Positions 13,292-62,797 of a DNA stretch of 64,000 bases are shown piece after piece. The notes under the pieces are model-generated. The model had not been told where the DNA came from and did no database searches. It saw only the letters and a program-made list of their open reading frames with translations. The stretch is from Alistipes indistinctus YIT 12060 (GTDB taxonomy: Bacteria; Bacteroidota; Bacteroidia; Bacteroidales; Rikenellaceae). A program made the translations under genes and the position numbers. The DNA lies in the NCBI RefSeq assembly GCF_025144995.1, contig NZ_CP102250.1, forward strand, positions 620,001 to 684,000, given 5' to 3'. Positions within the stretch are counted from its first letter, which is position 1. Each line of letters begins with the position of its first letter.

Positions 13292-13400
13292 GCCACATTC
13301 CGGAATACAGTTCCGCCCCTCATACGGAAATCCGTCCTGTTTCAAAAAATACTTTCAGCTATTTCCCGAGACAACGGAACCGTAACGACACCCAAATACA

Positions 13401-13434
13401 AACAGCCCCGGAACTTGAAGGTTCCGGGGCTGTT
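13401..13434. terminator. Bidirectional terminator hairpin between convergent genes
   Basis: Perfect 14-bp stem, AACAGCCCCGGAAC (13401-13414) / GTTCCGGGGCTGTT (13421-13434), with a six-base loop. It sits between the converging TonB receptor and CoA-transferase genes. T tracts are weak on both sides. Confidence 0.75.
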
Positions 13435-13453
13435 GTTTGCATAACCCTCCGCT

Positions 13454-14776
13454 TTATTTAGTCTGCGTAGTGGCTTTGATATAAGTGTGGTGTGCTCCGT
13501 AGCGCTCGAAAGCAGCCTTATCGAGCTCTTCCTGATGATCGGGGTGAGCCACCGAAATGATCAGGCGGGCACGCTCCTGCAACGATTTGCCGTACAGGTT
13601 CACCGCACCGTACTCGGTCACGAACCAATGAGCGTGTGCACGGGTCGTCACGACACCGGCGCCCAGCGTCAGCGTCGAAGCGATCTTACTCACCCCCTTG
13701 TTCGTTACCGAAGGCATCGCGAGAATCGCCTTGCCGCCCTCGGAACGCGAAGCGCCGTAGATGAAGTCGATCTGGCCGCCGACACCCGAATAGAACTTCG
13801 TCCCGAGCGAATCGGCACAAATCTGTCCGGTCAGGTCGACCTGCAACGCCGAGTTGATCGCGGTCACTTTCGGGTTCTTGGCGATGATAAACGGATCGTT
13901 CGTATAGCCGACATCCATCATCGCTACGCCCGGGTTGTTGTCGATAAAGTCATACACTTTCTGCGATCCCATCAGGAAGGTGGAAACCATCTTTCCTTTG
14001 TCGATAGCCTTGTTACGGCCGTTGATCACCCCGCTCTCCACCAGCGGCAACACGCCATCGGCAAACATTTCGGTGTGGATACCCAGGTCTTTGTGGTTAC
14101 CCAGCTGCGCCAGTACGGCGTTCGGAATGGCACCGATACCCATCTGCAAGCAGGCACCGTCCTCGATCAGCGCCGCGCAGTTCTTACCGATAGCGGTTTC
14201 GATTTCGTTGGGCACCGAAAAATGAGCCTCTTCGAGCGGCTTGTCGTCCTGCACGAAAATGTCGATATCGTCGACATGAATGAAGGCATCGCCGAACGAA
14301 CGGGGAACATATTTATTGATCACGGCGATCACATGCTCGGCGCACTCGACGGCGGCCAGCGTAGCATCGACCGAAGTACCCAGCGACACGTAACCGTGCG
14401 CATCAGGTTCCGACACCTGGATCATCGCCACATTACAGGGCAGTACGCCGCTGCGGTAAAGTTTCTGCGTTTCGCTCAGGAAAACAGGAATGTAATCGGC
14501 GTAACCGGACTGCGTCACCTTGCGCACGTTGCCGCCAACGAAAAACGAATCGAGCTGGAACACGCCCTCGAATTCGGGATCGGCATAAGGCGCGGGGCCT
14601 TCGGTGTGCAAGTGATGGATATGTACATCCTTCAGCTCATGGTTGCGGCCACGGTCGCACATGGCCTGGATCAGGCACTGCGGCGCACTGGCCACGCTGC
14701 TCAAATGGACATGGTCTCCCGATTTGATCACCCTGACCGCCTCGGCAGCCGATACATATTTAATTTGTTTCTTCAT
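13454..14776 (-). CDS. Acetyl-CoA hydrolase/transferase family CoA-transferase (4-hydroxybutyrate CoA-transferase-like)
   Basis: A 440-aa class I CoA-transferase. The catalytic Glu is E236 in HTEMFADG, matching E238 of the clostridial 4-hydroxybutyrate CoA-transferase. GMG-type loop motifs QMGIGAIPNAV and SGVGGQIDFIYGAS form the CoA site, and HVHLSSVASAPQ opens the first domain. These enzymes move CoA between acetate and acyl acids such as butyrate, 4-hydroxybutyrate or succinate in fermentation. The true acyl substrate cannot be read from sequence. Monocistronic, with a promoter box at 14821-14828 and a shared hairpin downstream. Confidence 0.9.
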   Translation of the reverse strand: MKKQIKYVSAAEAVRVIKSGDHVHLSSVASAPQCLIQAMCDRGRNHELKDVHIHHLHTEGPAPYADPEFEGVFQLDSFFVGGNVRKVTQSGYADYIPVFLSETQKLYRSGVLPCNVAMIQVSEPDAHGYVSLGTSVDATLAAVECAEHVIAVINKYVPRSFGDAFIHVDDIDIFVQDDKPLEEAHFSVPNEIETAIGKNCAALIEDGACLQMGIGAIPNAVLAQLGNHKDLGIHTEMFADGVLPLVESGVINGRNKAIDKGKMVSTFLMGSQKVYDFIDNNPGVAMMDVGYTNDPFIIAKNPKVTAINSALQVDLTGQICADSLGTKFYSGVGGQIDFIYGASRSEGGKAILAMPSVTNKGVSKIASTLTLGAGVVTTRAHAHWFVTEYGAVNLYGKSLQERARLIISVAHPDHQEELDKAAFERYGAHHTYIKATTQTK

Positions 14777-14820
14777 GGTGGTTATTTTGAGTTAGATTTG
14801 ACGATTCTTAAACGGAAATG

Positions 14821-14828
14821 CAAATTTA
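14821..14828 (-). promoter_or_regulatory. -7 element of the CoA-transferase gene
   Basis: The minus strand reads TAAATTTG, an exact TAnnTTTG match, 44 bases upstream of the ATG at 14776. Confidence 0.55.
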
Positions 14829-14900
14829 AACATTTTTCACATCCAAAACCGATTTTCCGGCAAATAATCGTCGGATCGGGCATATTCATACCACTGCACA

Positions 14901-14934
14901 TCGGATGGCATACGCAAATACGCATGCCATCCGA
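14901..14934 (-). terminator. Hairpin downstream of the kinase remnant
   Basis: Perfect 11-bp inverted repeat TCGGATGGCAT (14901-14911) / ATGCCATCCGA (14924-14934) with a 12-base loop. It lies just past the stop of the 14961 gene. There is no T tract, so terminator function is only probable. Confidence 0.5.
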
Positions 14935-14960
14935 CAGCGGGGCTTTCAGGCCATGCCCGG

Positions 14961-15725
14961 TCAATACCGGTTGATTGTCTCGAATAATTTGGCTTTGCTG
15001 AGCGGTTTGGTCAGGAAATCATCGACTCCCGCCTCGAATGCGCGCCTGCGGTCTTCGTCGAACGCATTCGCCGTAACCGCGATGATCGGAATAGCCGGAC
15101 AGAATTCCCGGATTCGCCGCGTAGCTTCCGCGCCGTCCATCTCCGGCATCCGGATATCCATCAGGATAATATCGAACTTCTCGCGTCCGGCCAGCTCGAC
15201 CGCTTCACGTCCGTTGCAGGCCCGCGTAAGGTTATACCCTTTCAACAATACTTTGACCAGCATATAATTGCTGTCGTTGTCCTCGGCAACGAGAATCCGT
15301 ACCGTAGCACAATCGCAGTCGCTCACTTTCTGACCGGACACGTTCTCTCCCCCATGTCCGGCCCCGTCGTCCGCATGGTCGTCCGTTCCGGTATTCAACG
15401 GAAGAATCGCCCAGAAAGTGCTGCCTTTGCCGGGTGAGGACACCGCGCCGATCTCCCCGTGGTAAATCTCCACGATCGCCTTGGCAATCGTGGTGCCCTG
15501 GGCGGTACCCTGTTCGAACATATTGAATTTTTCAAACCGGTTGAACACGCGGTTGACCTCATTTTCGGTCATTCCGCAACCGGTATCCCCTGCATAAAGT
15601 CTTACACTCTGAGGTACGATCTGGAATCCCATTTTTATATATCCCTGTTTGGTAAACTTAATTGCGCCGGTCATGAAATTCGAGAGGATTTGCGCTACCC
15701 TGAAAGCAATAATCCCCGATCTGCT
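14961..15725 (-). pseudogene. Decayed hybrid histidine kinase: partial HATPase plus intact receiver domain
   Basis: The frame opens after an in-frame TGA at 15726-15728 and begins mid-domain with FRVAQILSNFMTGAIKFT, the N-box of a histidine-kinase ATPase. The sensor, dimerisation and phospho-His regions are absent. The N-box Asn is replaced (MTGAIKF instead of TNAIKF). The D-box DTGCGM remains, but the G2 box is ruined (GTAQGTTIAKA instead of GxGLGLxI). The following receiver domain looks intact, with acidic AEDND, phospho-Asp in IILMDIRMPEMDG, and the Lys in FLTKPLS. The best sibling in the window is the intact kinase at 47704-50250. An ATG at 15674 could still yield a 237-aa protein whose receiver domain might be expressed. 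Confidence 0.8.
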
Positions 15726-15874
15726 TCATGACACGTAAAAACAAAGCATAAAACACCCCTACGATTAACTGAAAACCAAAATTACAAATAAAACCAGACG
15801 AAGATAGGCTTTTTTCCCTTTCCACGAAACGAACGGACTCATTGTGTTTAGAAATGTTTATTTCACAAAACACA

Positions 15875-15902
15875 GGCGGGAGAAAGGTTACTTTCTCCCG
15901 CC
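15875..15902 (-). terminator. Terminator hairpin after fumarase
   Basis: Perfect 12-bp stem GGCGGGAGAAAG (15875-15886) / CTTTCTCCCGCC (15891-15902) with a GTTA loop, 50 bases beyond the fumarase stop. On the minus strand it is followed by TGTGTTTTG. Confidence 0.75.
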
Positions 15903-15952
15903 CGACAGACATTACACCTTCGGATACACATTCCGGACGTACCGAATCCTAT

Positions 15953-17563
15953 TTATTTTTTAAATGCTGCGAAGAAATCGTTGCCCTTGTCGTCCACCAG
16001 CAGGAATGCGGGGAAATTCTCGACATAAATCTTACGGACAGCCTCCATGCCCAGTTCCGGGAAATCGACCACTTCGACCGACTTGATGCTATCCTTGGCC
16101 AGCACAGCGGCCGGACCGCCGATCGAACCGAGGTAGAAACCGCCATGCTTCTTGCAGGCATCGGTTACGGCCTGCGAACGGTTACCCTTGGCCACCATCA
16201 CCAACGAACCGCCGAGGCTCTGGAAAAGGTCCACGTAGGGGTCCATACGGCCTGCGGTCGTCGGGCCGAAACTGCCCGAAGCCATGCCCTGCGGAGTCTT
16301 CGCGGGACCGGCGTAATAGATAGGATGTTTCTTGAAATATTCCGGCATCGGTTTCCCTTCATCGATCATCTGCTTGATGCGGGCATGGGCAATGTCGCGC
16401 GCCACGACCAGCGTGCCCTTGACATTGAAACGGGTCTTGACCGGATACTTCGACAACGTCTCGCGTACTTTGTCCATACCCTCGTCGAGATCGAGCTCGA
16501 CGGCGGGCTGCATATTCGGAGCTTCCTTAGGCAGGAAGCGGGCAGGATTTTTTTCAAGTTGTTCGAGGAAAATACCGTCTGCGGTAATTTTCGCCTTGAT
16601 GTTGCGGTCGGCGCTGCAACTCACGCCGATACCGACCGGGCAGGACGCCGCATGGCGCGGGAGTCGAACGACGCGCACGTCGTGCACGAGGTATTTGCCG
16701 CCGAACTGGGCACCCACGCCGCTCTCCTGGCAAATTTTCAGGACCTTCTGCTCCCACTCCAGGTCGCGGAACGCGCGACCGCCCTCGTTACCGCTGGTAG
16801 GCAAGTGGTCGAGGTAACCGGCCGAAGCCTTCTTTACGGTCGAGAGATTCGCCTCGGCCGACGTACCGCCGATCACGATGGCCAAGTGGTACGGAGGACA
16901 AGCCGCCGTGCCGAGGTCCATGATATGCGATTTGATGAAATTAGTCAGGTTCTCCTCGGTGAGCAGCGCTTTGGTCTGCTGGTAGAGGAACGTTTTGTTG
17001 GCCGATCCCCCGCCCTTGGTGATAAACAGGAACTTGTATTCGTCGCCAGGAGTGGCGTAAAGGTCGATCTGGGCCGGCAGGTTAGTCCCGCTGTTCTTCT
17101 CCTCGGTCATCGAGAACGGCACCACCTGCGAATAGCGCAGGTTCCGGTCGCGGTAAGTCTCGTAAACGCCTTTCGACAGCATCTCGGCGTCATCGGCACC
17201 GGTGTACACGTTCTCGCCCTTCTTGCCGATCACGATCGCCGTACCGGTATCCTGGCAGGTGGGCAGTTCGCCTTGGGCCGATACGACCTGGTTGATCAGC
17301 ATCGTGTAAGCGACAAACTTATCGTTGTCAGTGGCTTCGGGATCCTTGAGGATATCCGACAGTTTCTGCAGGTGTGCAGCACGCAGGTAGAACGATACGT
17401 CGGCAAAAGCCTCTTTGGAAAGCAGTTCCAAACCTTTGGGGTCGACCTTAAGCACTTTGCGTCCGTCGCATTCGACCACCTTCACGTAATCCTTCGTGAG
17501 CAGGCGATACTCCGTTGTGTCGGCCGACAACGGAAACGGCTCCTGATACTTGAACTCTGACAT
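15953..17563 (-). CDS. fumA: Fumarate hydratase, class I (iron-sulfur)
   Basis: Interconverts fumarate and malate with an oxygen-sensitive [4Fe-4S] cluster. At 536 aa it is the single-chain FumA/B form, with the alpha and beta domains fused. The cluster cysteines are C103 ([10 protein letters not shown]), C222 (TAACPPYH) and C316 (GVSCSADR), corresponding to C105, C224 and C318 of E. coli FumA. The beta part shows [11 protein letters not shown] and GGPAAVL. In fermentative Bacteroidota the enzyme runs in the reductive direction, from malate to fumarate for succinate formation with menaquinol-dependent fumarate reductase. It is divergent from the DUF554 gene. Confidence 0.96.
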
Positions 17564-17603
17564 ATCTTCGTTATTGATTTGTGTTGGATGAAATTCGGAT
17601 ATG

Positions 17604-17611
17604 CAAAGGTA
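17604..17611 (-). promoter_or_regulatory. -7 element of fumarase
   Basis: The minus strand reads TACCTTTG, an exact TAnnTTTG match, 40 bases upstream of the fumarase ATG. Confidence 0.6.
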
Positions 17612-17633
17612 AAAATATTTGGTTGTTTTTCGT

Positions 17634-17641
17634 TACTTTTG
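17634..17641 (+). promoter_or_regulatory. -7 element of the DUF554 gene
   Basis: TACTTTTG, an exact TAnnTTTG match, 24 bases before the ATG at 17666. It is divergent from the fumarase box 22 bases away. Confidence 0.6.
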
Positions 17642-17665
17642 CCGGAACAAAAGCGCTTCGTAACG

Positions 17666-18370
17666 ATGACTGGAACCATAGCCAACGCCACCGCGATCAT
17701 ACTGGGTACGCTCGCGGGCGTACTGATCCGCTCGCGGCTTCCGCAAAAAAGCGTGGAGATCGTATTCCAGGGAATCGGCCTCTTTACGCTGGCGATCGGT
17801 ATCTCGATGTCGCTCAAGTCGGCGAACCTGCTGCTTGCCGTGCTCAGCCTCGTGATCGGCGGACTGATCGGCCAGGCACTAAACCTCGACCGACACCTGC
17901 GCCAGCTCACGGAGCGGCTGCAGCGAATCGCAAAAAAAGAGACCGCAGAAACTCAATCATCCTCACGCTTCACCGAGGGACTGATAACCGCTACGATGCT
18001 ATTTTGCGTCGGCTCGCTGTCGATTCTAGGAGCGATTGAAGAGGGTTCGGGCGAGACTCCCCGTCTGCTGCTGACCAAATCGATTATGGACGGGATCTCT
18101 TCCATAGCATTGGCCTCGTCGTTCGGCATCTGCATTCTTTTCTCGTCCGTGCCGCTGCTGATCTACCAGGGCGGCCTGACGCTCTTCGCCGGGGCGATGA
18201 TGCGGTTCATGTCCGGGAGCATGATCGCCGAATTGACCGGGGTAGGCGGTATCCTGCTGATCGGGTTAGGGATCAACATTCTCAAGATCAAAGAGATCAA
18301 CATCATCAATTTGTTGCCGGCACTGATCGTGGCTGTCATACTCGCCTACCTTTGGCCGTCAGGTATTTAA
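17666..18370 (+). CDS. DUF554 integral membrane protein (YqgA/YdfK-like)
   Basis: A 234-aa protein of six to seven membrane helices with the DUF554 pattern: an N-terminal GTIANATAIILGTLAGVLIRSRLP, a glycine-rich second helix pair (LVIGGLIGQAL), and LFCVGSLSILGAIEEGSG before the third block. The family has been suggested to transport small molecules, but no function is established. An in-frame ATG at 17579 lies upstream of the -7 box, so ATG 17666 is used. It is followed by a 152-base gap holding the ribosomal operon promoter. Confidence 0.85.
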   Translation: MTGTIANATAIILGTLAGVLIRSRLPQKSVEIVFQGIGLFTLAIGISMSLKSANLLLAVLSLVIGGLIGQALNLDRHLRQLTERLQRIAKKETAETQSSSRFTEGLITATMLFCVGSLSILGAIEEGSGETPRLLLTKSIMDGISSIALASSFGICILFSSVPLLIYQGGLTLFAGAMMRFMSGSMIAELTGVGGILLIGLGINILKIKEINIINLLPALIVAVILAYLWPSGI

Positions 18371-18454
18371 TGAGTAGGAACGCCGCGCCTTCAACTTCGC
18401 AAAGCTCCCGGACAACAGTAGCGGGAAGGAAATCAGCAGAAGCTTATCGAAATA

Positions 18455-18485
18455 TTTGATTTTCCCGGAGAAATCACTACCTTTG
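18455..18485 (+). promoter_or_regulatory. Promoter of the rpsF-rpsR-rplI operon
   Basis: -33 TTTG (18455-18458), a 19-base spacer and -7 TACCTTTG (18478-18485). Both boxes match the Bacteroidota primary sigma consensus, as expected for a highly expressed operon. The leader before rpsF is only about 30 bases, and I do not see the S6:S18-binding leader structure known from other phyla. Confidence 0.8.
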
Positions 18486-18522
18486 TGGCTCATTTTTACC
18501 AAACACTTTTAAAAATCGCATT

Positions 18523-18864
18523 ATGAACCATTACGAAACCGTTTTCATTGCCACGCCGGTTCTGTCCGATGTACAGGTCAAAGAGGCTGTGAGCAAATTC
18601 CGCGGTGTTATCACCGAAAACGGCGGTCAGATCATCAGCGAAGAGGATTGGGGCCTGCGCAAGCTCGCCTACCCGATTCAGAAAAAGACCACCGGCTTCT
18701 ATTACCTCATGGAGTTCACGGGTGAGGGCGACATCATCGAAAAGCTCGAAACCCAGTACCGCCGCGACGAACGCGTGATCCGTTTCCTGACTTTCAAAAT
18801 GGACAAGTACGCCGTTGAGTACGCCGAAAAACGCAGAAACAAAAACACCGCTAAACAAGAGTAA
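18523..18864 (+). CDS. rpsF: 30S ribosomal protein S6
   Basis: Primary 30S protein that binds the central 16S rRNA domain as a heterodimer with S18. The 113-aa product has the S6 opening [14 protein letters not shown], the [20 protein letters not shown] core and the [10 protein letters not shown] strand. The C-terminal tail is short and basic, without the poly-Glu tail found in enterics. It is first in a compact ribosomal operon with rpsR five bases downstream. Confidence 0.97.
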
Positions 18865-53549: not shown

Positions 53550-54077
53550 CTACAGTCCGTAAAGCAAATATCCGACGACACCGGAAAGGCAGATTACCAA
53601 AATCGGGTTCATTTTTTTGACCGAAGCGAAAAAAGCTGCGGCTAAGATGAGCCAACTATACACGTCGATAAACGTATCGGGGGTCAGCAACAGCAATGTC
53701 GCGGCCAGGATCATCGCCACCACCATCGGCAGCATGCCGTACATCGCATCGCGCACATAACGGTTGTTATGCAGTACCATATAGAATTTGGTGATCAGCA
53801 GCATGATCGTAAGCGAAGGCAGGCTGACTGCAAAAGTTGCCAGCAACGAACCCCAGATATTCCCCGTGACCGTATAGCCGACATAAGTAGCGCTGTTGAT
53901 CGCAATGGGCCCCGGCGTCATCTGCGAAATAGCAATGATGTCGGTCAGTTCACTGTTGGTCAGCCAATGATGTCGCACCACAATTTCGTTCTGGATCAGC
54001 GCAAGCATCGCATAACCGCCGCCGAAGCCGAAAAACCCGATTTTCAGGTACGAATATAACAGTTGCAGGTAAACCAT
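53550..54077 (-). CDS. Short-chain chromate-ion-transporter (CHR) protein, second of pair
   Basis: A 175-aa half-size CHR membrane protein with about six helices. The family motif GFGGGYAMLALIQNEIV is at residues 14-30, and SQMTPGPIAINSATYVGY at about 51-68. It lies 20 bases after its paired half and is the last gene of the long operon with the Ehr-like complex. Short CHR proteins occur in pairs; in Bacillus, two single-domain proteins are both needed for chromate resistance. Transport of chromate here is not proven; sulfate or another anion is possible, since function is assigned from the family only. Confidence 0.87.
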   Translation of the reverse strand: MVYLQLLYSYLKIGFFGFGGGYAMLALIQNEIVVRHHWLTNSELTDIIAISQMTPGPIAINSATYVGYTVTGNIWGSLLATFAVSLPSLTIMLLITKFYMVLHNNRYVRDAMYGMLPMVVAMILAATLLLLTPDTFIDVYSWLILAAAFFASVKKMNPILVICLSGVVGYLLYGL

Positions 54078-54097
54078 AATCAGTTCGGTTTGTGGGA

Positions 54098-54736
54098 TTA
54101 TTGTCGACGTTCGTTAGCATCACCGGATACATCGGATACTTCGCCGGCCGTATCGTCACGATCGGTAATGCGCTTCTGAGCCGGGCTATCCTTCACATTA
54201 CGCAAACTGCGGCGCAGCTTCAACCAACCGAACGCGATGCCGCCCGTAGCCCCGACGATAATCATATAAACGGGTGAAACGGCAAAATACCACACGACGA
54301 AGGCCGCGAGAACCGCGAGAATCCCCCGCGTCCAACCCAATCCCTTCGAGAAACCGAACACCGGCGCAAGCATCAACGCGACGACAGCCGGACGGATTCC
54401 TTTGAATACCGCTTCGACGACACGGTTCTCGCGAATCGAATTGAAAAATATCGCAATCACCAGTATAATCAGGAAAGCGGGCAGGATAATTCCCATCACG
54501 GCGGCGAGCATCCCCCGGTAGCCATGCACCTTGTACCCGACAAATACGGCGGTATTGAGTGCGATCGGTCCGGGAGCCGACTGCGCCAGCGTGAGCAGTT
54601 CCAAAAACTCGTCCTCCTTGACCCACCCTTTGTCGATCACTTCGCGCTGTACCAACGGGATCATCGCATAGCCGCCACCGAAGGTGAAAATGCCGATTTT
54701 CAGGAACGACAAGAAAAACGATAACGATTCGGGCAT
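54098..54736 (-). CDS. Short-chain chromate-ion-transporter (CHR) protein, first of pair
   Basis: A 212-aa half-size CHR protein. FTFGGGYAMIPLVQREVI (about residues 17-34) and AQSAPGPIALNTAVFVGYKV (52-71) mirror the second copy. A charged cytoplasmic tail of about 35 residues (RRSLRNVKDS to ANERRQ) is extra. The ATG at 54736 is only four bases after the hyfI stop, so the long frame upstream to 54898 is rejected. This arrangement makes the CHR pair the distal part of the Ehr-like operon. Confidence 0.87.
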   Translation of the reverse strand: MPESLSFFLSFLKIGIFTFGGGYAMIPLVQREVIDKGWVKEDEFLELLTLAQSAPGPIALNTAVFVGYKVHGYRGMLAAVMGIILPAFLIILVIAIFFNSIRENRVVEAVFKGIRPAVVALMLAPVFGFSKGLGWTRGILAVLAAFVVWYFAVSPVYMIIVGATGGIAFGWLKLRRSLRNVKDSPAQKRITDRDDTAGEVSDVSGDANERRQ

Positions 54737-54740
54737 ATCT

Positions 54741-55508
54741 TCAACTGTTAGGGAAACGTCCCAGCAGGGACATGATTCCGTGGATAAACGTGAGCGGATG
54801 CACCGGGTTTCCGGGTACGTACAGATCGGGCGTAAACCGTCCGAGGAAGCTGCGGTCGAGCGCCGGAGTACCGGCGAACACGCCCCCGGAAACAGCATCC
54901 GTTCCGGCCAGGATCAGCAATTTGGGCGACGCTACGGCATTATAAGCCAACTCCAGCGGCACGGCCATATTTTCGGTGATCGGTCCCGTAATCACGATGC
55001 CGTCGGCATGGCGCGGCGAAGCGGTGAACTCGACACCGTAACGGGCAAAATCGAAATTGACGTTCATCGTCGCGTTCAGCTCCATTTCGGTCGAGTTGTC
55101 CCCGCCGGCAGAGACCTCGCGCAACCGCAGCGAACGGCCGAAATGACGGCGGATCTCCCCTCTTACCCGGTTTTCGTCGAGGGTAATCCTCTGCGGCGAG
55201 CCCTCCCGAACGGACAACCTGTCCAGATCGTTGGTAGCCAAACGGTAATCGGAGGTAAAGCGAATCGCCCGGGGAAAACGCTTCGCACATTCGTTGCAAA
55301 AAATGCAACGGTCGAGCCGGATCGTGAACGGCGATGCGACAATCGCACCGGAAGGACACATGGCCTCGAGTTCAGCGGACTCCTCTTCGGACATCCCTCC
55401 GGAAATCACCGGGCGTCCCCGGAACGTATCGGGAAGTTCCACTGTCCTCAGGTCGGGAATAGCCTGCCGCCCGTGGCTGCGCAACACACGTATTTTGGAA
55501 AGCACCAT
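54741..55508 (-). CDS. Ehr-like complex small subunit: ferredoxin + NuoB/HycG domain lacking cluster N2 ligands
   Basis: A 255-aa fusion of a ferredoxin-like N terminus and a NuoB/HyfI-type C terminus. The N-terminal motif CIFCNEC gives C68, C71 and C74; the fourth Cys of a CxxCxxCxxxCP site is Phe (F78), but C51 (MCPSGAI) may complete one [4Fe-4S] cluster. The NuoB-like part aligns well (SPRHADGIVITGPITEN, VSGGVF, DLYVPGNPV). All proximal-cluster cysteines are gone: SCNGCD-type is SAGGDN (133-138), GDC is GTD (202-204) and PGCP is PGNP (232-235). Cluster N2 is therefore probably absent. It follows hyfG by 40 bases. Confidence 0.88.
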   Translation of the reverse strand: MVLSKIRVLRSHGRQAIPDLRTVELPDTFRGRPVISGGMSEEESAELEAMCPSGAIVASPFTIRLDRCIFCNECAKRFPRAIRFTSDYRLATNDLDRLSVREGSPQRITLDENRVRGEIRRHFGRSLRLREVSAGGDNSTEMELNATMNVNFDFARYGVEFTASPRHADGIVITGPITENMAVPLELAYNAVASPKLLILAGTDAVSGGVFAGTPALDRSFLGRFTPDLYVPGNPVHPLTFIHGIMSLLGRFPNS

Positions 55509-55548
55509 AATTACTCTGTTTTAACACCCCTGCATTCTGCTACGGTCC

Positions 55549-57084
55549 TTACAAGTCATGGCCGCAATAGGAAAGGTTGAAACTTTTGTTGCAGATCGGA
55601 AAGTCGGAAATGCCGGCACCGCGTACCGAAAGTGCCAGCGCCGTCCAGTTGTGCAACGACGGGTCGCATATCTTGTACTGCCGGAACTGCCCGTCGCTGC
55701 CGGTAATCCCGACATGGCACACTTCGCCGCGCCACCCTTCGACCAACGAAAAAGCAAGCGCATCGCTCTCCAGCGCCATCCGGTAATCGGGCAAGCTTGC
55801 AACGCGCATCCCGCAATCGAGCGTATCGAGCAGTGTCCGCACATACCCGGCCGATTGCGCCACTTCGCGCATCCGAACCCTCAGCCGTGCATATACATCG
55901 CCGGAATTCTCCGCCACAGGATCGTGCGCAATCAATTTGCCGTACGCACCACGGGGATGGGTCTGCCGGATATCCCGTACCAAACCGGAAGCCCGGGCCG
56001 CCATGCCGACAGCCCCGATACGCAATGCCTGCGTGCGGGTAACCACGCCGCAATCCTCAAAACGGGCCAGAACCGACGAGGTTCCTTCCAAACTGTGCAC
56101 GACCTCGGCATAGCGCGTTTCCACCTCATTCAGGTTTTTCAAGACCAACATCTTGAGATCGTCCGTCAGCGGATAATGGGTTCCGCCGAAACGGATCAAT
56201 CCTTTTGCAAAACGGTTTCCGCACCAACGCTGTGTCGTATTAATCACAATTGTGCGCAGGGCCTCGCAGGCCACCTGCCCCAACTGGTAACCGATATCCA
56301 TGCACAGCGCCCCCGTATCGGCCAGATGCATCGCAATACGCTCCATCTCCAGGGCTACGGTGCGTTCTATGCCCAGATCGTTCGCGGCCGGATCGAATTC
56401 CAATCCGGGTTCGCCGAGTCCTTCGGCAACCTCAGCATAGGCGAGAGCGTGGGCCACGACGCTGTCTCCCGCAATACTTTCGGACAGGACGGATTGCCGC
56501 AACCGATTCGGCGTCCCGCAAATCAGGCGTTCGATCCCCCGGTGCTGGAATCCCAGTACGATTTCGAGATGAATGACCTGCTCCCCGTTGCAAATAAAGC
56601 GGAAACAACCCGGTTCGATAATCCCCGCATGGATCGGCCCAACGTTGACCTCATGCAGGGCCTGCCCGCGAATGGCGTAAAAAGGATAGTTGTTCAGCGT
56701 CCGGCTACGGTCGGCACGGTCGTGTGCAAAACGCAACGGTTTGTTCCACGGATGGTCGGCGAAACAGATTCCATATTGCTCGGTCAACTCGCGTTCGAAC
56801 GGGTGTGCAGCCGGATATAGTGCGGTCAGCGACGGCAGCGGTGACGTATCGTTCGGATCAAGCCGGCTCGAAGCGATCAAAATTTTGCCGGACGCATCGT
56901 CCAGCACCAGACAAAAGAGCCGCAAACCTTCCTCGGAAGGCATCCCGAAATAGGCGGCGAGGTGGCACGGCTCGTTACGCAGGTAGCCGTGCATCCCCCG
57001 GAGAAATTCGGGATACGGGAAACAGGGAATCGCATCGAGTTTCACACTCCCCTGCCGGTTGGATGTCATGAACCACTTTTTCAT
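55549..57084 (-). CDS. Ehr-like complex large subunit (HycE/NuoCD-like) lacking [NiFe] ligands
   Basis: A 511-aa fused protein with a NuoC-like N-terminal domain (about 20-130, PAAHPFERELTEQYGI) and a NuoD/HycE-like large domain. The large domain starts NVGPIHAGIIEPGCFRF and includes EIVLGFQHRGIERL. Where [NiFe] hydrogenases have RxCGxCxxxH, this protein reads SIAGDSVVAH (203-212), keeping only the His. Where they have DPCxxC, it reads DPSLHNW (474-480). All four metal-ligand cysteines are missing, so it is not a hydrogenase. It starts immediately after the hyfF stop, so translation is coupled. Function in Ehr complexes is unknown. Confidence 0.9.
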   Translation of the reverse strand: MKKWFMTSNRQGSVKLDAIPCFPYPEFLRGMHGYLRNEPCHLAAYFGMPSEEGLRLFCLVLDDASGKILIASSRLDPNDTSPLPSLTALYPAAHPFERELTEQYGICFADHPWNKPLRFAHDRADRSRTLNNYPFYAIRGQALHEVNVGPIHAGIIEPGCFRFICNGEQVIHLEIVLGFQHRGIERLICGTPNRLRQSVLSESIAGDSVVAHALAYAEVAEGLGEPGLEFDPAANDLGIERTVALEMERIAMHLADTGALCMDIGYQLGQVACEALRTIVINTTQRWCGNRFAKGLIRFGGTHYPLTDDLKMLVLKNLNEVETRYAEVVHSLEGTSSVLARFEDCGVVTRTQALRIGAVGMAARASGLVRDIRQTHPRGAYGKLIAHDPVAENSGDVYARLRVRMREVAQSAGYVRTLLDTLDCGMRVASLPDYRMALESDALAFSLVEGWRGEVCHVGITGSDGQFRQYKICDPSLHNWTALALSVRGAGISDFPICNKSFNLSYCGHDL

Positions 57085-58491
57085 CTAAAAGGCGATAACG
57101 GCATTGATAAATTTGATCAGGAACGGTGGCTGCACGATGCCCAGCACCGAAGCCCCGGCGATCAGCAACAGGCCGCACCAGGTCAACCCCAGGTGGATAC
57201 GCAGGGAAGGCATCGGCAGCGGGTTTCCCACCGGTTTGTAGCACAATTTCAGAATGCGCGAACAAAAACTGAACATGACAAAGCAAAGCAACAGCGCCAG
57301 CAGAACCAGCAACCACCACCGCCCCGATTCGATGACCTGGCGCAGAATCATCATTTCGGAAACGAACAGCACCGAAGGCGGAAAAGCCAGCAGAGACATG
57401 CCGCCGAGCAACAGGGCTACGGCTCCGGTACGGTTCACGCCGATATATCCGCCAATGCGGTTCATCCGGTAAGTGCCGTAAACTTTCCCGACTTGCGCCA
57501 TTTGTACGAACATCCCCGACTTGATCAGTGCATGGGCGATCACCTGCAACAGTGCCGCGAAAATCCCGATCCCCCCCACGCCGAGCCCGACTACGGAGAG
57601 GCCCATGCACTCGACCGTCGAATAGGCGAGGAAACGCTTGTAGTTGTTCGTACGGCGCAGGTATACCCCCGCAATCAGCAACGAAATCAGCCCCGCAAGG
57701 ATCAACACATGCGAAAACCACTCGTAAACGGGCGAGGCGGCCGCCACGCGGTAGACGCGGAAAAACGAAACGAAACCGGCATTGACCAGCACCGTCGAGA
57801 TGACGGCCGAAGCCGGTGCGGGTGCGGCAAAATTGGCATCGACGCCGATCGTATAGAGCGGAAAAACCTCCATCTTGCAACTGTATCCCACCAGGATAAA
57901 CAGGAAGGCTATCTTCAGGTAGAGCGGATTGCCCGAGGCTACCGTCCGTGCCAGGTTCGCATACGACAGTTCGCCGCCCGCGGTAACGGTGCTCAGCAGC
58001 AGGATACCCAGGTAAGCCACGGCGATCCCGAGCGAACAGATGAATATATATTTCCACGTAGCCTCCAAACTCCGCGTATTGCGGCGGTGGTAAACCAGCC
58101 CGGCCGTACAGAGTGTGGTGGCCTCGAGAAAAATCCAGGTCACGGCGATGTTATTGGCGAAATAGACGCCCGTGGCCGACACGCAAAGCAGCATCAGCGA
58201 AATGTTGTAAAGCTTGAACTGGCGCAACGTCTCGCGGTCGAGGTAGAAATTGCTCTGCACGAAAGCCACCGCCGAAATCACGGTCATCAGCACGAAAAAG
58301 ATCGCGCCGAGCAGGTCGAACGTAAAAAACTGCGACTCGACCTCCCCGATACGGAACGGAATGACTGCAACGGCGAACCCGGCCTGCACCAGGTAATAGA
58401 ATGCGGCAAAAATGCGTACAGTGCGATGCTGTGCGGCCAATGCGACAAAACCGACAATAGCCAACGAGATGAGCAGGAAAATAAACATCAT
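57085..58491 (-). CDS. Ehr-like complex HyfF/NuoN-like ion-channel subunit
   Basis: A 468-aa antiporter-like membrane subunit with about 14 helices. The helix-5 Glu is in WIFLEATTL (about residue 120), and the central channel Lys is in GYSCKMEVFPLYTIGVDANFAAPAPASAVIS (about residues 200-230), the NuoL/M/N signature. Ion-translocating residues are thus preserved although the redox subunits lack their metal sites. It is preceded by hyfE, with a four-base gap, and followed directly by hyfG (TAG-ATG junction, no gap). Confidence 0.9.
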   Translation of the reverse strand: MMFIFLLISLAIVGFVALAAQHRTVRIFAAFYYLVQAGFAVAVIPFRIGEVESQFFTFDLLGAIFFVLMTVISAVAFVQSNFYLDRETLRQFKLYNISLMLLCVSATGVYFANNIAVTWIFLEATTLCTAGLVYHRRNTRSLEATWKYIFICSLGIAVAYLGILLLSTVTAGGELSYANLARTVASGNPLYLKIAFLFILVGYSCKMEVFPLYTIGVDANFAAPAPASAVISTVLVNAGFVSFFRVYRVAAASPVYEWFSHVLILAGLISLLIAGVYLRRTNNYKRFLAYSTVECMGLSVVGLGVGGIGIFAALLQVIAHALIKSGMFVQMAQVGKVYGTYRMNRIGGYIGVNRTGAVALLLGGMSLLAFPPSVLFVSEMMILRQVIESGRWWLLVLLALLLCFVMFSFCSRILKLCYKPVGNPLPMPSLRIHLGLTWCGLLLIAGASVLGIVQPPFLIKFINAVIAF

Positions 58492-58495
58492 GGCA

Positions 58496-59125
58496 TCAGT
58501 CCTTGAGCGAGGTTAGCGAATCGGAGTTGAAATCGTGCAGGCGTCGGCCGATCTTACCGGCAAACAGGCCGAGCATCAGCACGCTCATCAGGATATCGAG
58601 CAGGATCGCGATATTGATCAGGTAGGGCATTTCGACACCGATGGCCATAGAGAAGAGGAACACGCCATTCTCGATAACCAAAAAGCCGACCAGATGCGAG
58701 AAGATACGTTTGTGATTCACGATCAACAGCATCCCGCTGAGCAGCGCATAGAGTGCCACGCCGAAGAACACCCGGTCGATCTGCGTATCGGCCAGATAAT
58801 AGGTGACGACGATGCTGCACAGCAGCGCGGCGAGCGACAACAACAACTGGTTGAAGGTCGCGACCGAAGCCGCATGCACACGGTCGATACCCGTCCGGCG
58901 GATAATGTTATAAAGCAATACCGGAACAATAATCGCTTTAAAAACCAACGTTTCAGCTACGATAAAGACCAACTCCGGCCAGTCGATCGACCGAAGGCTC
59001 CACAACGCCACGGCCAACAACAACCAGCCCTGCAATCCCACCAACGAAGCATAATGGCGGAACCGCTCGACGATCGAGAGGTACAGCAGCGTCACGACAT
59101 ACAATATAATCAGTGCAAGCAACAT
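58496..59125 (-). CDS. Ehr-like complex HyfE/NuoK-like membrane subunit
   Basis: A 209-aa membrane protein with about six helices. The HyfE-type region VIENGVFLFSMAIGVEMPYL (about 155-175) contains the conserved Glu of the NuoK family in the proton path. An N-terminal pair of helices, including ETLVFKAIIVPVLLYNIIRRTG, matches the extension typical of HyfE compared with 100-aa NuoK. A basic C-terminal tail follows. It lies six bases after hyfC and four bases before hyfF, fully within the operon. Confidence 0.88.
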   Translation of the reverse strand: MLLALIILYVVTLLYLSIVERFRHYASLVGLQGWLLLAVALWSLRSIDWPELVFIVAETLVFKAIIVPVLLYNIIRRTGIDRVHAASVATFNQLLLSLAALLCSIVVTYYLADTQIDRVFFGVALYALLSGMLLIVNHKRIFSHLVGFLVIENGVFLFSMAIGVEMPYLINIAILLDILMSVLMLGLFAGKIGRRLHDFNSDSLTSLKD

Positions 59126-59131
59126 AATCTC

Positions 59132-60034
59132 CTATCCGATCCGGATTTGGTTCAACAACAGGAAGGCGATGACGAAAGCCACCAGCGCAACCGCGAGGAT
59201 CGTCACGATGTACGTGCTGTTGCGCGCCATGCGGCTGCGGGCCAAAAACGACTCGACGATACCGATCGCCAGCCCGGCCGCGAGACCCAACAGGAGTACT
59301 ACAATCGTGTCCCAATACAGTACCGAAGCGAATGCCGAAGCGGCCAGTACGGCCAATAGCCCGGCCTTGATCCAACCGGCAAGGGTAATCAACGCTAGAT
59401 CGAATCCACTATAATCCAACACCATCGCTTCATGAATCATCGTCAGTTCGAGGTGCGTACGGGGATCGTCCACCGGAATCCGCCCGGCTTCGACCAGCAT
59501 AATCTTGAACAGCGCATACATCACCAATACCATCACGACGACCATTTCGGGCGTACCGCTCCCCACTCCGGCAAAAACCTGGGAAAAACTGAGGCTGTCC
59601 GACACCAGTGCGAGCGTTCCGGCCACCAGGAAAAGCGCCGGCTCCAACAAGGCGCCGTAAAGCGCCTCGCGGCTGGCCCCCATCCCATCGATGCTGCTTC
59701 CTGTCTCCATGGCGGCGAGGATCAGCATTACGCGCCCCAGCGCCAGCAAATAGCAAAACAGGACGATGTCTCCATTGAACGCGAGTACGGCGGAAAAATC
59801 GCCGACCGGTACCAACAGCATGGCCGCCACGGTCGAAGCCAGATAGACCACCGGGGCGAGCCGGAACACGAACCCCGTCGCCGGACTGTAAACAGGCGCC
59901 TTGCACAACAACGCCCCCAACCGACTGATATGCTGATAGAAAGGAGCCCCCTTACGGCCGGCCAACAAGGCCCTTGTCCGGACGATCATTCCGGGCAGCA
60001 TCAGTGCAACGAACAGGTTCAATACTACACTCAT
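59132..60034 (-). CDS. Ehr-like complex HyfC/NuoH-like membrane subunit
   Basis: A 300-aa membrane subunit with about eight helices. The HyfC/NuoH loop GRIPVDDPRTHLELTMIHEAMVLDYSG (about 195-222), with its acidic cluster, sits at the interface with the redox arm. This is the subunit that in complex I forms the quinone cavity, and in hydrogenases the link to the NiFe module. GLAAGLAIGIVESFLARSRMARNSTY ends the core. A GGAG sits just before the next gene's ATG. It follows hyfB by 16 bases. Confidence 0.9.
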   Translation of the reverse strand: MSVVLNLFVALMLPGMIVRTRALLAGRKGAPFYQHISRLGALLCKAPVYSPATGFVFRLAPVVYLASTVAAMLLVPVGDFSAVLAFNGDIVLFCYLLALGRVMLILAAMETGSSIDGMGASREALYGALLEPALFLVAGTLALVSDSLSFSQVFAGVGSGTPEMVVVMVLVMYALFKIMLVEAGRIPVDDPRTHLELTMIHEAMVLDYSGFDLALITLAGWIKAGLLAVLAASAFASVLYWDTIVVLLLGLAAGLAIGIVESFLARSRMARNSTYIVTILAVALVAFVIAFLLLNQIRIG

Positions 60035-60050
60035 CGTATAAATCGGTATC

Positions 60051-62063
60051 TTAGAGCAGATTCAGGATCGACAACAAAAACACGAGGGCCAGGAACAACA
60101 GCGCATAGAGCACGTAATGGTTGACCTTGCCGGTACGGAACATCACCAACCGCGCGTTCATACGGCGCAACAGGTAACTCCACCACCGGGCGAACAGCGA
60201 GTCGAGCGTATCCTTATGCCGTACGTCGAAATGGTGCTCCGTGGGAAAAATCTCGTCGGCGGCGATCCGTGCGGGATCGAGCCGGTTGGTAATCATCCGT
60301 TCCGAGATACGGCCCAGTCCCTCGCTGAACGATTCGCCGGTATACTGCATCCGGGAGGTCACCGCCGTAAAGCCGCAATTCCATGTAGGCGAAGAGCTTT
60401 CTGCACGACGGCGCACGACCCACGAGCGCAACAGCCACAATATGACGGAAATTCCCACCAGCATCCCGATCCCGTAAGTAAGCGGCAGGAAGCTGTCTGA
60501 AAAAGACACCGTGCGGTCCAATACGTCCGCCGGAACAGAGATCGGAGAGGCTCCCGAAACATCGGCAATCCGGGCCACGAGCCCGACGATCCACCGCAAC
60601 GCGAACACGGGCGCCAACCCCACCAACAGGATACCCGCCAGCGGCAATGCCATCGCCGCGAGCATCGGACGGGAAACCTCCCGTGCCCGCTCGGCCACTT
60701 CGCTGCGCGGAAGTCCCGAGAAGACGACCCCGTAAAGTTTCGTGAAGGCCAGCACGGCCAGCCCCCCGATCAGCGCGAGAAAAATCAGCCCGGACAGTGC
60801 GATGACCGTCACCGGTCCGTTGGCCGCAATTCCGTCAAGCAGACCCATATAAATCAGAAACTCGGAAACGAACCCGCTCAGCGGCGGCAACGCGCAGATC
60901 GCCAGCGTCCCGACCAGAAACAGGATCGCCGTCACGGGCATCCGTTTGCCCAGTCCGCCCAAATCGTCGAGCGAGGTGGTGTGCGTGGCCGTATAGATAT
61001 TGCCTGCCCCCATAAAAAGCAGCGACTTGAAGAACGAATGGTTCAGCGTGTGCAGCAGCGCTCCGGCCATACCTGCGTAAAAAATAGGGTCGCTTCCTTC
61101 CGCCTTGCCGAGCAGCGCGGTACCGAGAGCGATAAAGATGATCCCGATATTTTCGATGCTCGAATAGGCGAGCAATTTCTTCACATCGTTCTGCAACGCC
61201 GCGAGGATCACGCCCCACAAGCCGGTTACCGCACCGATGCACAGCACGATCAGCCCGATCGCGAACAGGTGCGAATCGAAACAGGAGACGACGCGCATCA
61301 CGCCGTATACACCGGTTTTGATCATCACACCCGACATGAATGCGGAAATGTGGGCCGGAGCGGCCGGATGCGCCTCGGGCAGCCAAACATGCAACGGGAA
61401 AATACCCGCTTTCATTCCGAAACCGATGAGGAATACGATGAACAGCGGGATGATGTTTCCACCCTGTTCACCGTAGAGCGCCAACGCATCGAACGATGCG
61501 GGCAAGCCGCTCGCATACAACGTGACGAATCCCGCCAGCAGGAACAAAAAACCCACATGCATCAGGATCAGGTAGCTGAGTGCGGCCCGGCGCACTTCGC
61601 GGCGCTCGGCATCGAACAGCATCAGCACGAACGACGACAGCGTCATCACCTCCCACGCGAACAGGAAGCTGAATCCGTCGCGCAGCGTCACGACCAGCAG
61701 CATCGACAGGTACAGAATGCCCAGGCCGCAATAGTGCAGCGAGATCTGTGCCGGGGATTTGCGGCCCAAATAGGGCTTTATATAACCTTTCGCATAAATC
61801 AGCACCGCGACGGCCGACAACGACAATATAATGAGGAAAAAGGAAGACAGCGGATCGGTAACGCCGTATTGCGGACCGAAAACGATATTGATTCCCTCGG
61901 GATAAATTCGCCCTCCGCCAGAAAACACCCCGACAGCCTCATACAGGGCCGACAATACTCCGAGGCCGACGACACAGAAAGCGACCTGCCATTTCCACCG
62001 CACCGGAACCGCAAAAACGGCCAGCGACAGCAACATCAGTGCTATAACGGACTCGATAAACAT
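60051..62063 (-). CDS. Ehr-like complex HyfB/NuoL-like ion-channel subunit
   Basis: A 670-aa large antiporter-like subunit with about 16 helices. The helix-5 Glu lies in FLFAWEVMTLSSFVL (about residue 135), and the first Lys in GFGMKAGIFPLHVWLPEAHPAAPAHISAFMSG (about residues 215-240). The second Lys is in GVMIKTGVYG and the third region in LLAYSSIENIGIIFIALG. These are the proton-path residues of NuoL/HyfB. The C-terminal 150 residues (charged, RLDPARIAADEIFP) form the amphipathic extension of HyfB. It is the first of the six complex genes and lies eight bases after the rsmE stop. Confidence 0.92.
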   Translation of the reverse strand: MFIESVIALMLLSLAVFAVPVRWKWQVAFCVVGLGVLSALYEAVGVFSGGGRIYPEGINIVFGPQYGVTDPLSSFFLIILSLSAVAVLIYAKGYIKPYLGRKSPAQISLHYCGLGILYLSMLLVVTLRDGFSFLFAWEVMTLSSFVLMLFDAERREVRRAALSYLILMHVGFLFLLAGFVTLYASGLPASFDALALYGEQGGNIIPLFIVFLIGFGMKAGIFPLHVWLPEAHPAAPAHISAFMSGVMIKTGVYGVMRVVSCFDSHLFAIGLIVLCIGAVTGLWGVILAALQNDVKKLLAYSSIENIGIIFIALGTALLGKAEGSDPIFYAGMAGALLHTLNHSFFKSLLFMGAGNIYTATHTTSLDDLGGLGKRMPVTAILFLVGTLAICALPPLSGFVSEFLIYMGLLDGIAANGPVTVIALSGLIFLALIGGLAVLAFTKLYGVVFSGLPRSEVAERAREVSRPMLAAMALPLAGILLVGLAPVFALRWIVGLVARIADVSGASPISVPADVLDRTVSFSDSFLPLTYGIGMLVGISVILWLLRSWVVRRRAESSSPTWNCGFTAVTSRMQYTGESFSEGLGRISERMITNRLDPARIAADEIFPTEHHFDVRHKDTLDSLFARWWSYLLRRMNARLVMFRTGKVNHYVLYALLFLALVFLLSILNLL

Positions 62064-62071
62064 ACGCGCGG

Positions 62072-62797
62072 CTAATTCTTCGGATAAGATTCATTGACGA
62101 ACGCGACCGCCGCGACAGCTGCCACGGCAGCCGTTTCAGTACGAAGGCGGCTACGCCCCAAAGAGATATCGGCAAACCCATACTGACGGGCTAATCCGAT
62201 CTCTTCGGGCGAAAAATCGCCTTCGGGCCCGATCAGCACCGTCACACGGCTTCCCGGAGAGATGAGTTGCCCGATAAAACGGCGCGGCATATCCTTTTCG
62301 CAATGGGCGATCAGCTTCACCCCGTCGAACGGCCGTGCGACCCATTCGCGCAGCGGCGTCAGCGGCTCGACTACCGGATGATAGGCCTTGAGCGATTGTT
62401 TGACGGCACTGGTAACCACCTTCTCCAACCGGTCTGTCTTGAGCGTGCGACGCTCGCAATGATCGGTCAGCAACGGTACGATACGGTCTACGCCGATCTC
62501 GGTCGCCTTCTCGGCGAACCACTCGAACCGGTCGGTATTTTTGGTCGGGGCAACGGCCATCACCAGCTCGTAGCCCCGTTTTTCGAACTCAGGCCAGCGT
62601 TCGCGGATCACGACACGACAATGTTTCGGCGACGCTTCGACGATCTCGGCCCGGCACATCGTTCCCCGGCCGTCAGTCAGGTGCAGCGAATCGCCCGCCC
62701 CAAGACGCAATACCCGCACGCAATGCTTCGATTCCTCCTCGGAAAAAACATAAGAACCGGTGTCAGGATCGAGCTCGGGAGCGTAAAAGAGTTGCAT
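62072..62797 (-). CDS. rsmE: 16S rRNA m3U1498 methyltransferase RsmE
   Basis: SPOUT-family methyltransferase (241 aa) that methylates U1498 of 16S rRNA. An N-terminal PUA-like domain (about 1-70, EEESKHCVRVLRLGAGD) is followed by a trefoil-knot domain. Its motifs are APTKNTDRFEWFAEKATEIGVD, VLIGPEGDFSPEEI and SLGRSRLRTETAAVAAVA, all diagnostic of RsmE. It heads the operon that continues into the Ehr-like complex with only eight bases between. That is probably gene-order convenience, but it means that the complex shares a promoter with a housekeeping gene. Confidence 0.95.
   Translation of the reverse strand: MQLFYAPELDPDTGSYVFSEEESKHCVRVLRLGAGDSLHLTDGRGTMCRAEIVEASPKHCRVVIRERWPEFEKRGYELVMAVAPTKNTDRFEWFAEKATEIGVDRIVPLLTDHCERRTLKTDRLEKVVTSAVKQSLKAYHPVVEPLTPLREWVARPFDGVKLIAHCEKDMPRRFIGQLISPGSRVTVLIGPEGDFSPEEIGLARQYGFADISLGRSRLRTETAAVAAVAAVAFVNESYPKN

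Follow-up and report, generated by a model that had tools for sequence, protein, structure and literature searches.

What becomes of a hydrogenase-like or complex I-like membrane complex once the metal centres of its hydrophilic arm have been lost? The question is raised by six genes in the 64,000-nucleotide stretch of DNA analysed here (the window), which spans positions 620001-684000 of the single-contig 2.857 Mb genome of Alistipes indistinctus YIT 12060. The genes are contiguous, occupy the minus strand from 62063 down to 54741 and are arranged in the order hyfB-hyfC-hyfE-hyfF-large subunit (LSU)-small subunit (SSU). Coordinates are those of the window unless another locus is named, and all of its features described below lie on this strand. 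Profile matches returned the same coordinates, gene order and hydrogenase-4 families as an earlier reading made from the letters alone (the sequence-only reading). Its assignment of the complex to the energy-converting hydrogenase-related (Ehr) type is supported in that the LSU is homologous to group 4 enzymes, has lost the cysteines of the [NiFe] site and is encoded alongside antiporter subunits. The feature that sets the complex apart is the additional loss of the proximal (N2) iron-sulfur cluster, whose pocket now carries two acidic residues.

Loss of the N2 cluster ligands in the small subunit

The SSU (54741..55508; 255 aa) consists of a ferredoxin domain fused to a NuoB-like domain (PF01058, E=3e-15). 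Its AlphaFold2 (AF2) model (predicted local distance difference test score, pLDDT, 94.4) matched HycG (7z0t_G) with Z 18.5 over 140 aligned residues (root mean square deviation, rmsd, 2.0). At the four positions where MbhJ and HycG have cysteine, alignment revealed GGD137NST140, GTD204 and PGN234P, i.e. D137 and T140 (55089..55100) for ligands 1 and 2, D204 (54897..54899) for ligand 3 and N234 (54807..54809) for ligand 4. The earlier reading of these sites as SAGGDN, GTD and PGNP was thus correct. The same cluster has been lost in 85 of the 106 aligned relatives, in most of which the ligands are replaced by D-x-D-N, and all four cysteines are kept in the other 21.

Two trivial explanations were considered and dismissed. 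A sequencing or assembly fault is contradicted by some 95 distinct relatives with substitutions of this sort and by the canonical NuoB encoded elsewhere in this genome (locus L137), which keeps all N2 cysteines (CC, GAC, PGC). A shift of the ligands was looked for, and no cysteine had been re-formed at another place in the SSU; C140 is kept in 59/96 relatives, but not in the window.

Only one cluster motif remains, as had been anticipated from the letters (at most one ferredoxin-like cluster): a [4Fe-4S] motif formed by C51 and C68-x2-C71-x2-C74 (55287..55358), whose four cysteines are invariant in 85/85 N2-less relatives. Following the established NuoI ligand pattern, we take these to be the ligands of N6b, N6a being the cluster that was lost; the one kept is therefore presumably that which would have fed N2. 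Ligands of N6a are absent from the window SSU, and have been lost in nearly all N2-less members.

Loss of the [NiFe] site in the large subunit

The LSU (55549..57084; 511 aa) is a fusion of NuoC- and NuoD-like parts (PF00346 and PF00329) without any [NiFe] ligand. Its homology to HycE of Escherichia coli (7z0s_E) is clear both from the profile comparison (E=3.5e-61) and from the AF2 model (pLDDT 90.3; Z 40.4, 490 aligned residues, rmsd 2.6). In the alignment with HycE, the RxCGxC motif corresponds to S203-I-A205-G-D-S208, with A205-G-D-S208 (56461..56472) as the counterpart of CGxC, in agreement with the SIAGDSVVAH that had been proposed for RxCGxCxxxH. The second motif, DPCxxC, had been equated with DPSLHNW, which proved to be in the wrong register. 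Profile alignment places SLDPCYSCTD of HycE over SFNLSYCGHD at the very C-terminus of the LSU, and the true counterpart is N503-L-S505-Y-C507-G508 (55561..55578), three residues before the end of the protein. The conclusion that the [NiFe] site is lost holds in the corrected register as well: the four ligand positions are A205, S208, S505 and G508, none of them a cysteine. We also considered C507 as a surviving ligand, and rejected it, as it lies one residue off the DPCxxC position and could not rebuild the site alone.

Because the NiFe ligands are also missing in the relatives examined, their loss is a trait common to Ehr relatives, and only the loss of N2 is new. The genome offers no sign of a [NiFe] enzyme elsewhere: it lacks HypD, a NiFe maturation protein, gave no match to PF00374 above the cut-off of this family, and no NiFe hydrogenase was found in it. 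HypD is likewise absent from 15 of 22 other carrier genomes. Nor is the quinone tyrosine of NuoD present, which we take to be Tyr87 of Thermus thermophilus Nqo4; in the profile alignment its position is occupied by Gly206 of the LSU.

Two acidic residues in the former N2 pocket

Exactly two acidic residues are found among positions 137, 140, 204 and 234 in 95 of 96 distinct N2-less proteins (the SSU of L021 has one). An acid at position 140 occurs only in proteins that lack one at 137 or 204 (5/6 versus 0/90), and has been gained twice independently on the SSU tree. The Fisher p value for this compensation, about 1e-7, overstates the independent evidence, since the sequences are related; when pairs are compared with the tree taken into account, they are too few for significance. 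The asparagine at position 234 is mostly conserved, with N, H, S, F or Y in a few members.

An oxidised [4Fe-4S] centre held by four thiolates has a charge of -2, and two carboxylates have the same. This match may be a coincidence. The two-acid rule suggests that what is required locally may be charge and not redox chemistry.

Distribution and origin of the N2-less complexes

The near relatives of the window genome belong to the Bacteroidales, the closest named one being an uncultured Alistipes. An LSU with roughly 36% identity or more was detected in about 85 of 393 Bacteroidales species, and a phylum-wide draw dominated by high-quality genomes, mostly without the complex, yielded 17 carriers among 395 genomes. 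Carriers in culture include Chryseolinea serpens DSM 24574 and Arcticibacter eurypsychrophilus (loci L066 and L075). The operon order is kept in dozens of genomes, and dN/dS values (nonsynonymous to synonymous substitution rates) of 0.03-0.20, obtained from close pairs for all six genes, indicate purifying selection. Judged from these comparisons, the N2-less Ehr complexes are a conserved clade and not a one-off.

In a tree of LSU plus SSU built with the pocket columns masked, Ehr of the Bacteroidota type formed a clade apart from other Ehr (support 100/99). This clade contains three N2-containing Bacteroidales members, as well as N2-less Cytophagales with both ferredoxin clusters. As the N2-containing trio groups with these two-cluster Cytophagales forms, the best tree favours two events of N2 loss, a single loss being also allowed (approximately unbiased test, AU, p 0.42). 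The exact N2 motif pattern is rare, occurring in only three genomes of the 393-genome Bacteroidales draw. In the three N2-containing Bacteroidales, every clade-diagnostic residue of LSU, hyfC and hyfE is present, as are most of the hyfF ones; within the screened columns, they differ from the N2-less forms only at SSU positions 137, 139, 204 and 234 and at LSU K294. The loss of N2 therefore changed little but the pocket, and this subfamily seems to have been able to do without the cluster even before losing it. N2-containing relatives also include Gastranaerophilales/Melainabacteria, from which Ehr has been reported (PMC6349859).

In some genomes the SSU gene was observed alone, away from hyfB-LSU (L055:8992-9759 and L087:8986-9738, also L082, L063 and L077, all N2-less), and in L063 and L077 the lone gene follows pyrD. 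One in-frame stop was noted in the matched frame of the L157 SSU and of the NuoD-like matches of G319, G116, G037, G184 and G262; a pseudogene, an assembly error or read-through might account for it.

The membrane arm

Four genes encode the membrane arm. The hyfB-like antiporter subunit of the NuoL/HyfB family (60051..62063; 670 aa) matched PF00361 (E=1e-57) and, under its curated cut-off, NF005086 (hydrogenase 4 subunit B; E=1e-150). The hyfC-like subunit of the NuoH/HyfC family (59132..60034; 300 aa) matched PF00146 (E=3e-23) and has 7z0s_D as its best solved match. The small hyfE-like membrane subunit (58496..59125; 209 aa) was recognized by NF008556 (hydrogenase 4 membrane subunit; E=9e-15, under the cut-off), and the second antiporter subunit, hyfF-like (57085..58491; 468 aa), by PF00361 (E=6e-40).

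Conserved residues of the putative ion path comprise E138, K218, K346 and E401 of hyfB, E123, K206, K324 and E379 of hyfF, and E58 and E152 of hyfE, while E182, D189, D190, E196, E202 and D207 of hyfC are invariant. The claim that the Glu and Lys residues of hyfB and hyfF are intact is valid for these eight positions, but not for the lysine of transmembrane helix 8 (TM8), which is replaced in hyfF (Asn237) and in hyfB varies between K and N over the family (K249 in the window; 61317-61319). Within the N2-less clade, the hyfB position is split between K (36) and N (29). The ion path is thus mostly, not fully, canonical, and is similar in N2-containing and N2-less members.

Genetic neighbourhood of the operon

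Clustering of the flanking genes revealed no conserved redox partner (formate dehydrogenase, NuoE/F or ferredoxin) beside the operon. What does recur in several lineages is an anion transporter. In the taxonomic order of L083, the SSU is present in 15 of 291 genomes, all N2-less, and among these 15 a SulP gene lies directly downstream in six and an SbtA gene (PF05982, E=7e-113) in one. SulP is also directly downstream in L067 and L070, from other lineages, which brings the total to nine N2-less genomes with SulP or SbtA. In G808, SulP lies past the operon on its upstream side, and in L041 it is no more than 8 kb away. In G884, G927, G969 and G1000, the Ehr-linked SulP is the only one found. 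On the SSU tree the SulP/SbtA link needs nine changes. Bicarbonate is the likely, predicted substrate of these transporters.

In L041, a Bacteroidetes metagenome-assembled genome, a DabA/NuoL-like (DAB) pair was observed between the N2-less Ehr operon and SulP, within about 8 kb (11924-18740). DabA occurs in only 8 of the 32 carrier genomes searched. MnhB (MrpB-type, PF04039) was not found in the window genome; its presence in only 1 of 57 genomes makes it too rare to show mutual exclusion with Mrp.

In the window, an rsmE-like rRNA methyltransferase gene (62072..62797; PF04452/PF20260), of use only as a synteny marker, ends 8 nt upstream of hyfB; it is also found upstream in L040, L098 and L138. 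On the other side, a pair of chromate-transporter-family genes, chrA2 followed by chrA1 (53550..54736; PF02417), begins 4 nt past the SSU stop codon, provided that chrA2 starts at 54736 (an internal ATG read from the sequence), and the pair is likely to share a transcript with the SSU gene. The order rsmE-hyfBCEF-LSU-SSU-chrA2-chrA1 was seen again in L040 (Alistipes) and L138. Three genomes of the Rikenellaceae type have the chrA pair immediately after the SSU gene (the window, L040:9812-10897 and L138:8248-9752).

Two further observations concern related loci. In five N2-containing operons (L099, L100, L104, L109 and L115), a regulator with a helix-turn-helix (HTH) and a phosphotransferase system (PTS) EIIA-like part is placed directly upstream of hyfB, at about 1.8-2.5 kb in these loci. 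The complex I locus of the window genome (L137; 2681000-2694500) is canonical: NuoCD is fused, the cluster motifs of both NuoB and NuoI are intact, and that stretch holds no NuoE/F/G.

Possible function of the complex

At the level of sequence, the ligand loss, the retained N6b motif, the conserved pump residues, the purifying selection and the two-carboxylate rule are all apparent. To account for them we tentatively propose, rating the chance of being right a little short of even, an Ehr-type complex that translocates H+ or Na+ with no electron flow through N2, has a dicarboxylate site in place of this cluster and supports the uptake of anions. Its internal electron wire would be cut on both sides of the single remaining [4Fe-4S] cluster, and its main job would be ion movement. 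The carboxylate pair may stand in for the lost cluster, either electrostatically or by binding a proton or a hard metal, and the hydrophilic arm would determine how the E-channel is shaped and charged, with neither quinone nor H2 chemistry involved. Like Mrp, the membrane arm (hyfB, hyfF, hyfE and hyfC) would swap H+ for Na+ (or K+), an exchange that in several lineages could support a neighbouring anion transporter, namely SulP or SbtA, or the CHR pair in the Rikenellaceae. The lone N6b cluster may serve a structural purpose, or may sense the redox state and thereby gate the exchange. A narrower version is possible but doubtful: in a widespread Bacteroidota branch, the carboxylate pair might preserve the oxidised cluster's charge, or switch it when protonated or metal-bound, a redox pump having become an ion-gradient exchanger for the uptake of bicarbonate or other anions. 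The sequence-only reading had pictured an ion pump whose redox engine was replaced or removed. The missing ligands, the mostly kept pump residues, the purifying selection and the lack of a conserved redox neighbour agree with it, although electrons may still play some part.

Several observations weigh against an exchanger of this kind. The invariant N6b cluster implies some remaining redox or structural role, and the conserved LSU residues E157, D207, D474 and S505, which surround the former active site, suggest a bound ligand or a reaction. The TM8 position of hyfF is asparagine in nearly all relatives, those with N2 included. SulP, whose substrate is only predicted, also adjoins two N2-containing Ehr operons (L115 and L121), and its link is therefore to the complex and not to the loss of N2. 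Moreover, most Bacteroidales show no SulP/SbtA link; the window genome is one of these, and searches of it for SulP and DabA (PF10070) found neither.

The first two of these points would fit a complex that is still redox-driven, in which a ferredoxin-like donor reduces N6b and electrons reach a substrate or cofactor of the LSU directly, perhaps through a metal other than iron-sulfur bound by the carboxylates and the asparagine. The conserved N6b ligands (85/85), an LSU active-site region shared by N2-containing and N2-less members, and a two-acid pocket with N, H or S that could bind a metal all speak for it. However, relay distances in formate hydrogenlyase (FHL) are below 14 Å with the proximal cluster present (PMC9474812), whereas, once this cluster is removed, more than 20 Å would be expected between N6b and the LSU site; the window pocket has no cysteine, N6a (the usual entry cluster) is gone from nearly all N2-less members, and no conserved donor gene was found nearby. 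We regard this explanation as rather unlikely. Still less probable is a redox-inert metal (Ca2+, Mg2+, Zn2+ or Mn2+) on the carboxylates that only stabilises the SSU, the arm acting as a structural or sensory antiporter cap gated by N6b: the exact two-acid rule, the usually conserved asparagine and the compensating shifts would suit it, but the variation of the asparagine position (N, H, S, F or Y in a few members) would not.

The transporter genes also invite the view that, as in DAB or NDH-1MS, CO2 hydration or bicarbonate transport is carried out by the complex itself, which would then not feed a separate transporter. The SulP/SbtA neighbours and the DabA-DabB pair, within about 7 kb of the L041 operon, are in its favour, but no carbonic-anhydrase-like subunit was found in the operon, the transporters are separate genes and DabA is confined to a quarter of the carrier genomes searched; we consider this improbable, slightly more so than the inert metal. 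Finally, the stepwise loss, with N2 disappearing first while both ferredoxin clusters were present (L086, L089 and L091) and one ferredoxin cluster following, together with SSU genes set apart from the others (L055 and L087), might be expected of a functionless, decaying remnant of an Ehr complex or hydrogenase. This is contradicted by the conservation of the complex, its low dN/dS, the gene order shared by dozens of genomes, the invariant motifs and the wide occurrence in Bacteroidales species, and it is very improbable.

In complex I, the chief unsolved problem is how ion pumping far from N2 is linked to the electron transfer that takes place there. The complex described here is a natural "wire-cut" form, in which N2, N6a and the catalytic site are gone while arm and pump are conserved, and it could show whether such machines are able to move ions without electrons. 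Sister complexes that contain N2 (SSU of the L142-L144 type) share its diagnostic residues and allow a direct comparison, and the SulP/SbtA neighbourhood provides a first testable functional lead for complexes of the Ehr type.

Comparison with known systems

Respiratory complex I shares with the window complex its NuoB/C/D/H/K/L/N-like architecture and an acidic path resembling the E-channel; in contrast to it, the window complex is devoid of N2, N6a, the NuoD quinone tyrosine and NuoE/F/G. Antiporter-like subunits without an internal redox chain are also a feature of Mrp and DAB/MpsAB, and in DAB2 a NuoL-like subunit is driven by the proton motive force without such a chain (PMC13144422). Unlike the complex studied here, however, these systems have no NuoB- or NuoD-like subunits, and the window genome lacks MrpB (MnhB) and DabA.

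The closest solved structures are those of E. coli formate hydrogenlyase-1/hydrogenase-4 (7z0s/7z0t), with HycE for the LSU, HycG for the SSU and the same hyfB/C/E/F families. FHL possesses the [NiFe] site, cluster G1, two HycF clusters, HycB and FdhF, whereas the window complex has only one ferredoxin cluster of all these.

The greatest similarity is to the Ehr complexes, which combine an LSU of the group 4 hydrogenase type lacking the NiFe cysteines with a NuoB-like SSU and antiporter-like membrane subunits encoded together. The available passages of the literature on Ehr treat these complexes as known but of unknown function, and discuss only the missing NiFe ligands (PMC6349859, PMC7304191, PMC10284858, PMC10432482). 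A search of the open literature, which did not extend to older subscription papers, yielded no description of an N2-less Ehr, of a carboxylate replacement or of a link between Ehr and bicarbonate. The N2-containing Ehr relatives have C-C-C-C and often two ferredoxin clusters; in the window type, N2 and usually N6a have been lost, and two acids occupy the pocket.

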